A stretch of DNA of 34,341 nt, taken from assembly GCA_005777315.1 (NCBI GenBank), contig SXMN01000048.1, positions 1 through 34,341 of the forward strand. Direction: 5' to 3'. Below are positions 3,450 through 11,829 of the stretch, one piece after another. The translations under genes were made by a program, and so were the position numbers. The notes below the pieces were generated by a model. The model was not told where the DNA came from and did no database searches. It was given only the letters and a program-made list of their open reading frames with translations. Origin of the DNA: Verrucomicrobiales bacterium (GTDB lineage: Bacteria; Verrucomicrobiota; Verrucomicrobiia; Limisphaerales; F1-12-MAGs170). Positions within the stretch are counted from its first letter, which is position 1. The number at the start of each line of letters is the position of its first letter.

Positions 3450-4544
3450 TCAGGCATCCCCGCGCACGCACCGCAGGAGCGCTTTGACGGCCGTCGGGTC
3501 GAAGGTTGTGCCGCTGCCGTGTTCAATCTTTTGCAACGCCGCCTTGTCGTGGCCGGATTCGACGTACGCGGTCGCAGCGGCGAGGAGTCTGGCGAGCGGA
3601 GGAATCTCATCTCCTTTCAGGCGTGAAGGGTAACCGCTGCCGTCGTGCCTCTCGTGGTGAGCGCGGATGACCAGACCCACGTCATTCAGCCCCCCCTTGA
3701 AGACCGCCATCTCCGCGGCGATGACCGGATGACGCTCGATCATGGCTCTCTCGTCTGTCGAGACCGCTCCGGAATCTTTGCACCAGCGTTCAACCAAATC
3801 ACGCGGCAGGTTGATAAGGCCGATGTCCTGGAGCCATGCACTGGTTTCGAGAGTGATGCGTTCATCCCTTGCGAGCTTGAGATGTGCGCCCATTCCGCGA
3901 CAGAGAGAAACCGTACGTTCCGCATATTCTGCGAGCGAAGGATGACAGGCTTGGAGAAGGTGCGTGGAAAGTTCAACCGCGTGCTGAAAATTGTCCGCCA
4001 TGGCCGTGCTGTTCTGCTCTAGTTCCTTGTTTTGGGCGGCAACAGTGGCGACCTGTTCTTCGAGGGCTTTGTTGAGCTTGGACAGCTTCTCGTTCATCGC
4101 GCGGGTGGTTGCCTGTAGAACGAGATTCTTGCAAACAAGTTCGTAGCGCTGGACCGCGTTGCGAATCGTGGCGAGAAGATCCTCACGCAACCAGGGTTTG
4201 ACGACGAAACGATAGATCTCGCCCTTGTTAATGGCATCGATGACCGTGCTCAGGCTGAGCACCGCCGTGATGAGGATGCGCGTGGCGTCGGGTTGGATTT
4301 GTTTCACCTGTGACAGGAATTCCAGCCCCGTGATCATGGGCATCTGCTGGTCGGAAATGATGACTGAAAAGGGCTGCTGTTTGAGAATTGTCAGGGCTTC
4401 GATGGCGCTGGAGCAGGCAACGACTTTGTATCCATCGCGGTGGAGTGTTTCCCTGAGGGCAACAAGCACGATCTCCTCGTCGTCCACGACCAGGATATGA
4501 TGCATGGGCGCGTTGGAGATTGAAGATTCGAGGGTGTTTGTCAT
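3450..4544 (-). CDS. Response regulator with coiled coil and degenerate HD-GYP domain
   Basis: Start chosen at 4544 because its ATG overlaps the TGA of the upstream kinase (ATGA), which implies translational coupling; a longer in-frame extension has no support. Counting from that Met, residues ~15-130 form a receiver domain with the acidic pair D21/D22, phosphoacceptor D65 (in IISDQQMP), T93 and K116. A coiled coil follows at ~148-180, then an HD-GYP-like domain at ~186-360. The GYP half is present (HHERHDGSGYP, H296/H297) and so is ERHP (H272). However, the signature HD pair reads QD (Q239-D240), and the later metal-binding Asp of the VADVYDA motif is Thr (T325 in AATAYVE). Active HD-GYP proteins hydrolyse cyclic di-GMP. 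Two altered ligands suggest this one is inactive or a binding/adaptor domain driven by receiver phosphorylation. Confidence 0.85.
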   Translation of the reverse strand: MTNTLESSISNAPMHHILVVDDEEIVLVALRETLHRDGYKVVACSSAIEALTILKQQPFSVIISDQQMPMITGLEFLSQVKQIQPDATRILITAVLSLSTVIDAINKGEIYRFVVKPWLREDLLATIRNAVQRYELVCKNLVLQATTRAMNEKLSKLNKALEEQVATVAAQNKELEQNSTAMADNFQHAVELSTHLLQACHPSLAEYAERTVSLCRGMGAHLKLARDERITLETSAWLQDIGLINLPRDLVERWCKDSGAVSTDERAMIERHPVIAAEMAVFKGGLNDVGLVIRAHHERHDGSGYPSRLKGDEIPPLARLLAAATAYVESGHDKAALQKIEHGSGTTFDPTAVKALLRCVRGDA

Positions 4545-6583: not shown

Positions 6584-6693
6584 TCTCGAACCGTTTGTTA
6601 CGTGTAAGTATGATTTGCAATGGACACCATCCTGTTCAATAGTCCCGCCGAAATCCGGTGCGACCGCCCGTTACGCGACCGGGTGTCGCAATC

Positions 6694-7863
6694 ATGGAAA
6701 TTCTGCTTAAAAATGCTCCATCGCGAGTTGTCTCGTGTTTTTTCACGGTCCTTCTTTTTGCTGGTTCCAACCTGTTGAATGGGGCGGGTGCTCCGGCCAA
6801 AAATTCGGAATGGCCCATGTTCCGCGGAAGCCCGGGGCTGCTCGGCGTTTCTGAATCTCCTCTTCCCGACAAGTTGTCCTTGCTCTGGAAGTTCAAGACA
6901 CAGGGACCGGTGAAATCTTCTCCCGCCGTGGTTGGTGGCCGGATCTTCATCGGTTCCACAGACAGCAACCTTTACGCTCTCAACCTCCAAACCGGTGAAA
7001 AAGTCTGGTCCTTCAAAGCGGGCGACGCGATTGAATCGTCTCCACTCGTGCTCGGCGGCAAAGTCTTCTTCGGCTCGACGGATGCCAATGTCTATGCAGT
7101 CGATGCCTCGACGGGCAAAGAGCTGTGGAAATGTCCGACCGGAGACAAGATTCTCAGTGGTCCCAATTGGGTGGCATCGACGAACAAAGGCGCCGCCCCG
7201 TGGATCCTCGTCGGCAGCTACGACTTCAAGCTTTACTGCCTGGATTCGGCAACCGGGAAGACGAACTGGACTTACGAGACCGGAAATTACATCAACGGTT
7301 CCCCGGCGGTGGCGGACGGGCGGACGGTTTTCGGCGGCTGCGATGCACTGCTGCATGTCATCTCACTGGCTGACGGCAGCAAGGTGAAGGAGGTCGAAGC
7401 TGGCGCCTACATTGCGGGCTCGGGGGCTGTCGAAGCCGGGCGCGTCTATATCGGTCACTATGAGAATGAAGTCATTTGTGTTGATCTCAATGAAGGAAAA
7501 CGCGCCTGGACCTTCCGCGACCGGAATTTCCCTTACTTCAGTTCACCGGCTGTGACCGGAGACCGGGTGGTCTTCGGTGGACGCGACAAGAAACTTCATT
7601 GTGTTCAGAAATCGGATGGCAAGGAGTTGTGGGCGTTCTCAGCTCGAGGAAAAGTGGACAGTTCGCCTGTTGTGACAGGGGACCAAAAAGTAGTGGTGGG
7701 ATCAGATGATGGACGCCTGTACGTTGTGTCGCTGAAAGATGGCAAAGAGCTGTGGAGTTATGAAATAGGTCAGCCTGTCGGAAGCTCACCTGCCGTGGCC
7801 GATGGGCGCATTGTCATCGGAAGCGATGATGGCCACGTGTATTGCTTCGGAGCGAAGAAGTGA
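6694..7863 (+). CDS. Secreted PQQ-like beta-propeller repeat protein
   Basis: Start set at ATG 6694, which gives a basic N-terminus and a hydrophobic signal sequence (about residues 11-27) ending near GAGA; the longer GTG start at 6658 adds twelve residues without a better signal. The mature part is a string of roughly forty-residue blades of the PQQ/outer-membrane-scaffold type, each with a 'G.V..GS.D...Y.LD..TGK..W' pattern, for example FFGSTDANVYAVDASTGKELW, and ends cleanly on a blade. Such proteins are periplasmic or surface scaffolds, and some bind pyrroloquinoline quinone; no dedicated cofactor ligands can be assigned here. The next gene starts four bases after its stop, so the two are probably co-transcribed. 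The function of this copy is unknown. Confidence 0.85.
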   Translation: MEILLKNAPSRVVSCFFTVLLFAGSNLLNGAGAPAKNSEWPMFRGSPGLLGVSESPLPDKLSLLWKFKTQGPVKSSPAVVGGRIFIGSTDSNLYALNLQTGEKVWSFKAGDAIESSPLVLGGKVFFGSTDANVYAVDASTGKELWKCPTGDKILSGPNWVASTNKGAAPWILVGSYDFKLYCLDSATGKTNWTYETGNYINGSPAVADGRTVFGGCDALLHVISLADGSKVKEVEAGAYIAGSGAVEAGRVYIGHYENEVICVDLNEGKRAWTFRDRNFPYFSSPAVTGDRVVFGGRDKKLHCVQKSDGKELWAFSARGKVDSSPVVTGDQKVVVGSDDGRLYVVSLKDGKELWSYEIGQPVGSSPAVADGRIVIGSDDGHVYCFGAKK

Positions 7864-7866
7864 CCT

Positions 7867-8316
7867 ATGGCATATCGTCGTAAGACCTGGCGCGAAAAGC
7901 TCGCCGACGACAAGGGGCTGCCGAAGATCGGCAAGGTTGAGGGCAATATGACCAAGCGCTGGGGCACTGGCACGATGGTCATCCCAGCTCCGCGTGAGGT
8001 GGACGAAATAATCCGCAAGATTCGGAAAGGGAGCACGGCCACCATCAACGATCTGCGTGCTGCGCTCGCGAAAAAGCATGGTGTGGACATCTGCTGTCCG
8101 ATCACCACCGGCATCTTTACCTGGATCGCCGCCTACGCCGCCGAAGAGGATGAGGCCGAAGGCAGGAAGCGCATTACGCCGTGGTGGCGGGTGCTGAAGT
8201 CGGACGGGAAGTTAAACCCGAAGTTTCCAGGTGGCGTCAAAGAACAGTCCCTTCGGCTCGCTGCTGAAGGCGTCATCGTTCCGCAGAGCCCGCCACGAAG
8301 AATCTCAACACGGTGA
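7867..8316 (+). CDS. MGMT-fold alkyltransferase-like protein, PWWR instead of PCHR
   Basis: A small basic protein. Its C-terminal half follows the DNA-binding and active-site region of O6-alkylguanine-DNA alkyltransferases: a helix-turn-helix-like TINDLRAALAKKHG, then TPWWRVLKSDGKLNPKFPGG and LAAEG. In true methyltransferases the loop is PCHRV with the alkyl-accepting Cys; here residues 106-107 are Trp-Trp, giving PWWRV. The known alkyltransferase-like (ATL) proteins also replace the Cys with Trp (PWHR), bind alkylated DNA and hand it to nucleotide excision repair. By analogy this protein may sense damaged or modified DNA without repairing it. It lacks the usual N-terminal domain. Its ATG is four bases after the propeller stop, with GAAG upstream as a possible ribosome site inside that gene's end. 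Confidence 0.72.
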   Translation: MAYRRKTWREKLADDKGLPKIGKVEGNMTKRWGTGTMVIPAPREVDEIIRKIRKGSTATINDLRAALAKKHGVDICCPITTGIFTWIAAYAAEEDEAEGRKRITPWWRVLKSDGKLNPKFPGGVKEQSLRLAAEGVIVPQSPPRRISTR

Positions 8317-11349: not shown

Positions 11350-11829
11350 TTGAAGCCTTCAGTCTATATCGAAACCACCGTGTTGAGCGTGCTTACCGCA
11401 GGACCGACTCGGGACATTGTTCAGACAGCCCTGCAGCAATTGACGCACGAGTGGTGGGAAAGGCGAAGCCGCTCATTTGATTTGTTCATTTCCGATTTCG
11501 TCCTGCGCGAGGCGAGCCGAGGAGACAAGGTTGCAGCCCGGAGACGCCTCGATGCAGCAGCGAATCTCAAGGAACTTTCTGTGAATGTGGCCATTGAAAC
11601 CCTGGCCACACGCTTGCTGAACGAAACCCGCATGCCTTCCAAGGCACAGCAGGATGCAGCGCACCTGGCGTGTGCAGCCGTTCACGGGATGGACTATCTT
11701 GTCACCTGGAACTGCACTCATATAGCGAATGCGGTGCTGATTCCACAAGTGCAGGCCGTTTGCCTTCTGGCAGGCCACAAGTGCCCACAGATATGCACAC
11801 CTCAAGAACTCATGGTGAATCCAGCATGA
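11350..11829 (+). CDS. PIN-domain VapC-type toxin
   Basis: A 159-residue PIN domain of the VapC-like type. The N-terminal acidic residue is Glu rather than Asp (E8 in VYIETT), followed by E54 in LREAS, D102 in QQDAAH and the HGMDYLVTWN block (D115, N121). These are the usual metal-coordinating acidic residues of PIN ribonucleases. The predicted start is TTG at 11350, 21 bases after the radical SAM gene; no better ATG keeps the YIETT strand. VapC toxins cleave RNA, often initiator tRNA or rRNA, when freed from the antitoxin. The ORF ends in ATGA overlapping a small gene, probably its antitoxin. This puts the toxin first, the reverse of classical vapBC. Confidence 0.85.
   Translation: MKPSVYIETTVLSVLTAGPTRDIVQTALQQLTHEWWERRSRSFDLFISDFVLREASRGDKVAARRRLDAAANLKELSVNVAIETLATRLLNETRMPSKAQQDAAHLACAAVHGMDYLVTWNCTHIANAVLIPQVQAVCLLAGHKCPQICTPQELMVNPA

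Follow-up and report, generated by a model that had tools for sequence, protein, structure and literature searches.

The window analysed here, a stretch of 34,341 nucleotides from a Verrucomicrobiales bacterium (contig SXMN01000048.1), contains two closely spaced genes on the plus strand. The upstream gene (6658..7863) was identified by Pfam (PF13570, PF13360) and by its neighbourhood as a PQQ/ACSF4-type beta-propeller gene, and its stop codon at 7863 lies 3 bases upstream of the ATG of the second gene. The latter (7867..8316) encodes a protein of 149 amino acids, which contains the motif P105-W106-W107-R108 (8179..8190). A search for relatives yielded 57 rows; removal of 9 duplicates, 2 fragments (L056, L058) and 2 ordinary alkyltransferase-like proteins (ATLs; L016, L017) left 44 rows, which are referred to as the branch and whose counts identify the motif as the counterpart of PCHR. 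An earlier note on this DNA had described PWWR in place of PCHR, and the translated reading frame bears this out: W106 and W107 are present, and the active-site Cys and His are absent. As judged from its sequence, the window protein thus lacks the Cys required for alkyl transfer by the known route. Elsewhere in the window, an open reading frame of 159 amino acids (11350-11829), which we take to be PIN-like, had no Pfam match at E <= 1e-4.

Residues 1 to 39 of the window protein (7867..7983) form a basic, family-specific N-terminal extension, as defined by conservation in the alignment A1, by charge count and by the predicted model. Residues 1 to 37 contain 10 Lys or Arg and 4 Asp or Glu residues, and the AlphaFold model builds the extension from two strands and a pair of helices. 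It is kept across alignment A1, and ATLs of about 103 amino acids begin near residue 40. The calculated pI of the window protein is 10.1. The first helix of the helix-turn-helix (HTH) extends from T59 to H71 (8041..8079), and Ile60 is aligned with the base-flipping Tyr of Atl1 in a profile alignment, at the place used for flipping in AGTs and ATLs. The start of the recognition helix, C77 to W86 (CPITTGIFTW; 8095..8124), occupies the place of the AGT/ATL arginine finger in the columns of the 44 rows. The copy from the same genus (L001) is 82% identical to the window protein, and comparison of the two genes (NG86) gave a dN of 0.095 and a dS of 0.950; the resulting dN/dS of about 0.10 indicates that the gene is under purifying selection. 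Most relatives end in a C-terminal tail of the pattern KGKKY.V.DYEK.L, which is absent from the window protein (8250-8316) and from the same-genus copy; these two have another short tail in common. Since the tail is shared, it is no recent error, and a frameshifted C-terminus was rejected. On contig 462 of genome G314 (3555-4235), a partial second copy with 90 matched residues is located directly 5' of a nearly full copy, both within one open frame of 276 codons (L023/L036).

Several methods assign the window protein to the MGMT fold. The Pfam domain PF01035 matches residues 102-136 (8170..8274) with 31.6 bits (E 1.4e-7), which exceeds the gathering cut-off of 27, so the resemblance is above chance, and the same domain was matched by all seven branch members scanned (E <= 0.01). 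No match to the window protein was obtained in NCBIfam or PHROGs at E <= 1. AlphaFold2, supplied with an alignment of seven rows (P0001 and L001-L006), produced a model with a pLDDT of 87.7 and a pTM of 0.81, in which the last eight residues are of low confidence. When this model was compared with the PDB using Foldseek, ranks 1 to 40 were all MGMT, AGT, Ogt or ATL entries. VIA superimposed it on Sulfolobus Ogt (5llq_A) with a Z of 10.3 over 86 residues (rmsd 1.8 A) and on Atl1 (3gx4) with a Z of 8.1, the best unrelated chain reaching 4.4; that other folds are missing from the VIA list carries no evidential weight. Alignment of the 44 branch rows with 23 ATL/Ogt rows by HHalign gave a probability of 97.6% and an E-value of 3.4e-12. 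Given the matches from Foldseek, VIA and HHalign, the resemblance is not superficial, an objection that the earlier note had raised as possible, and the window protein is predicted to have the MGMT/ATL fold.

Within the branch, position 105 is Pro in 43/44 rows, and Trp107 and Arg108 are present in all 44, whereas position 106 varies between Tyr (36), Trp (6) and Phe (2). The rows with the invariant W107 and R108 span Verrucomicrobiota, archaea, Bacillota and Acidobacteriota, and P-[YFW]-W-R is likewise read by the later matches that reach the motif, which come from Acidobacteriota and from three copies on enterococcal plasmids. The second aromatic residue had been regarded as unusual, and a family search had been proposed to see how common PWWR is. 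This search leads to the opposite view: as W107 is invariant, the second aromatic is the fixed residue of the branch, and the window protein departs from the majority at position 106 alone. The Trp for Tyr at this position is a conservative change found in a small part of the branch.

ATLs lack the catalytic Cys, usually have a Trp in its place and bind O6-alkylguanine DNA with high affinity. Searches of two phylum samples with an ATL query yielded 19 matches (11/119 and 8/145 genomes): PCHR is found in 12, the motif is not reached in one (L111), and the Cys is absent from six, which read PWHR (3), PWHQ (1) or PWWR (2; L112, which is identical with L016, and L113). The twelve matches with PCHR (L104-L109, L114-L119), from Bacillota and Verrucomicrobiota, are ATL-like in sequence yet possess the Cys. 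In total, PWWR occurs in three ordinary ATLs of about 103 amino acids (L016/L112, L017, L113), all from one Verrucomicrobiota genus (g62), and the solved Vibrio ATL 2kif reads PWFR. The window protein is thus not alone in having a second aromatic, and the idea of PWWR as a rarity was dropped.

According to a review, an HTH with an arginine finger and a Tyr is common to AGTs and ATLs (PMC10779285). None of the 44 branch rows has a Tyr in columns 57-62, none has an Arg in columns 76-85 and none has a Cys at 106; an Arg at column 86 occurs in four rows. An insertion of 6-8 residues leaves an uncertainty of about three residues in the register of this helix, and the BLAST and HHalign registers differ by at least one; in none of them does an Arg fall within columns 76-85. 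Other positions are nearly fixed among the 44 rows: H71 (40), C77 (42), T80 (40), G114 (43), K119 (43), G123 (44) and E134 (44). L015 and L006 have Glu or Asp in place of C77, which is also absent from three enterococcal plasmid copies; the alignment and the predicted helices place C77 at the HTH turn, outside the strand of the AGT pocket. With neither the flipping Tyr nor the arginine finger, the branch is not a standard ATL by these residue tests. The earlier note was thus right about an MGMT domain without Cys and His, but its designation as alkyltransferase-like is too specific for a protein that lacks the other two elements as well.

The branch and the ATLs, represented by S. pombe Atl1 (3gva/3gx4) and the Vibrio parahaemolyticus ATL (2kif), have in common the MGMT fold, the missing active-site Cys, an aromatic residue at its position, the motif Arg and the Glu-Gly that ends the domain. 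In contrast to these ATLs, the branch lacks the flipping Tyr and the arginine finger, has a Trp where ATLs have His or Phe beside the aromatic residue, and possesses a longer recognition helix, around 39 additional N-terminal residues and a different C-terminal tail. With AGT/Ogt/MGMT proteins (human AGT, Sulfolobus Ogt 5llq and the Ogt of the window genome, L007) it shares the fold of the C-terminal domain; however, Cys, His, Tyr and arginine finger are all missing, and the chain is too short for an additional AGT-type N-terminal domain.

Using the window protein as query (E <= 0.001), the branch gene was found in 19/58 close relatives, the own genome counted. The same query matched 5/288 genomes across the phylum (own genome counted), two of which contain ordinary ATLs (G035, G247), 17/151 genomes in the phylum of a Bathyarchaeota genome, including a broken match in G456 and a partial one in G405, and 6/199 genomes of a Bacillota phylum sample. 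The profile A1 matched 9/149 genomes in the phylum of an Acidobacteriota genome, one match being a short broken stretch. In the tree, archaeal and Pedosphaerales members form neighbouring groups with rough support; the W106 rows cluster but are not one clade, as two changes are needed, although the bootstrap had not settled. No branch match was present in 50,697 phage records, none was confirmed in viral contigs, and 5/72,556 plasmid records, from Enterococcus and Subdoligranulum, contain one; a phage or plasmid origin was therefore rejected. The Enterococcus-plasmid protein annotated as 'MGMT family protein' belongs to the same branch (32-36% identity over 89-95% of the query, P-[YF]-W-R), but C77 is absent from the three copies read. 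Beyond an automatic DNA-repair term in one copy, no function is attached to this plasmid label. On a mobilizable Enterococcus plasmid (L121; NZ_CP033739.1, 58185-66601), the branch member is located a few hundred bases 5' of a predicted dfrF trimethoprim-resistance gene. A study of the PWWR or PYWR branch was not found in the open-licence literature.

A tight coupling to the propeller gene had been suggested on the basis of the window. The close spacing is real there and recurs: the propeller gene precedes the branch gene by 3 bases in the window and in L001, by 8 in L065, by 19 in L067 and by 11 in L076. However, propeller homologues (E <= 1e-60) are present in 45/58 relatives (own genome counted) and both genes in 16 genomes, which leaves 29 genomes with a propeller gene in which the branch gene was not found, and the two are adjacent in only five of the 16 (G000, G288, G296, G332, G334). 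These five are the Pedosphaerales carriers with W106. A functional operon is weakened by these numbers, and the link to the propeller is local synteny confined to part of one order. Among 43 neighbourhood stretches, there was neither a partner common to the whole branch nor a conserved neighbour pointing to DNA work. In two Pedosphaerales genomes (L070, L078), the branch gene lies between a RidA-type gene and rmuC and overlaps the latter. A small GIY-YIG gene is located directly 5' of the branch gene in L085 and L087; the RidA, RmuC and GIY-YIG domains were identified by Pfam in one copy each and by sequence clustering in the others. A role as defence system was rejected, as PADLOC gave no match for any of seven branch members.

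In bacteria, UvrA is the partner of ATLs for nucleotide excision repair. Archaeal carriers were screened for UvrA (TIGR00630), the set of 17 comprising 16 of the 17 match genomes of the Bathyarchaeota phylum (G456 was left out) and G348. UvrA was detected in 1/17 carriers compared to 3/20 genomes without a branch match, in assemblies that may have gaps; the search control was positive in 12/14 known genomes. Judging from these archaeal genomes, it seems unlikely that the branch as a whole depends on UvrA. A further PF01035 match of more than 80 bits is present in 30/34 carriers, the exceptions being G288, G296, G342 and G348, and the window genome, the one in which the motif of the further copy was read, encodes an ordinary Ogt with PCHR (L007) on another contig. 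The branch gene is therefore no substitute for Ogt.

The most likely explanation, which we favour tentatively, is that the branch protein derives from MGMT, has an altered pocket and binds nucleic acids without being catalytic. Binding would involve the HTH, which is retained, together with the basic N-terminal extension, and the pocket may have been rebuilt from an aromatic residue, Trp107 and Arg108 in place of Cys-His-Arg. Such a protein would probably mark or sense a modification or structure of DNA; AGT-type flipping would not be involved, and it could work independently of UvrA. A more far-reaching proposal, possible but more speculative, is that the P-aromatic-W-R branch constitutes a functionally separate MGMT-fold family across bacteria and archaea, in which the whole AGT/ATL set (Cys, His, flipping Tyr and arginine finger) has been exchanged for another conserved set (H71, C77, T80, aromatic-W-R and K119) and which may read a different DNA feature, with neither AGT-type flipping nor UvrA.

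That the branch consists of true ATLs, which flip O6-alkylguanine into an aromatic-lined pocket and flag it for nucleotide excision repair, is unlikely. The fold is the same, the aromatic residue in the place of the Cys makes Cys-based chemistry at the motif site impossible, as in ATLs, and ordinary ATLs with PWWR exist. However, the flipping Tyr (0/44) and an Arg at the finger position, both conserved in AGTs and ATLs according to the review (PMC10779285), are missing, and UvrA was not found in 16/17 archaeal carriers. Slightly more doubtful is a reuse of the MGMT fold outside nucleic acid biology, such as in protein or small-molecule binding. The known flipping residues are gone and new ones are strongly conserved (H71 40/44, C77 42/44, T80 40/44, K119 43/44), and the neighbours are diverse, with repair genes in the minority; such a role is opposed by the HTH and the basic N-terminal extension, both of which are retained, and by the RmuC or GIY-YIG genes that adjoin the branch gene in a few genomes. 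A different type of enzyme or alkyl acceptor, in which Cys77, where the recognition helix begins, takes the role of the motif Cys, is highly improbable: C77 and H71 are well conserved (42/44 and 40/44), but Glu or Asp replaces C77 in L015 and L006, three enterococcal plasmid copies lack it, and its predicted position is at the HTH turn rather than on the AGT pocket strand.

The branch described here is a widespread and uncharacterised part of the MGMT domain family (PF01035), in which the usual repair residues are replaced. Its notable feature is this replaced residue set rather than the double Trp, which is normal for the branch. Genes of the branch are annotated as 'MGMT family protein' and would consequently be taken for alkylation-repair genes. 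If its members perform neither flipping nor transfer, many bacteria and archaea would carry a misleading annotation; if the members still bind DNA, the branch would represent a second way of using the MGMT fold.
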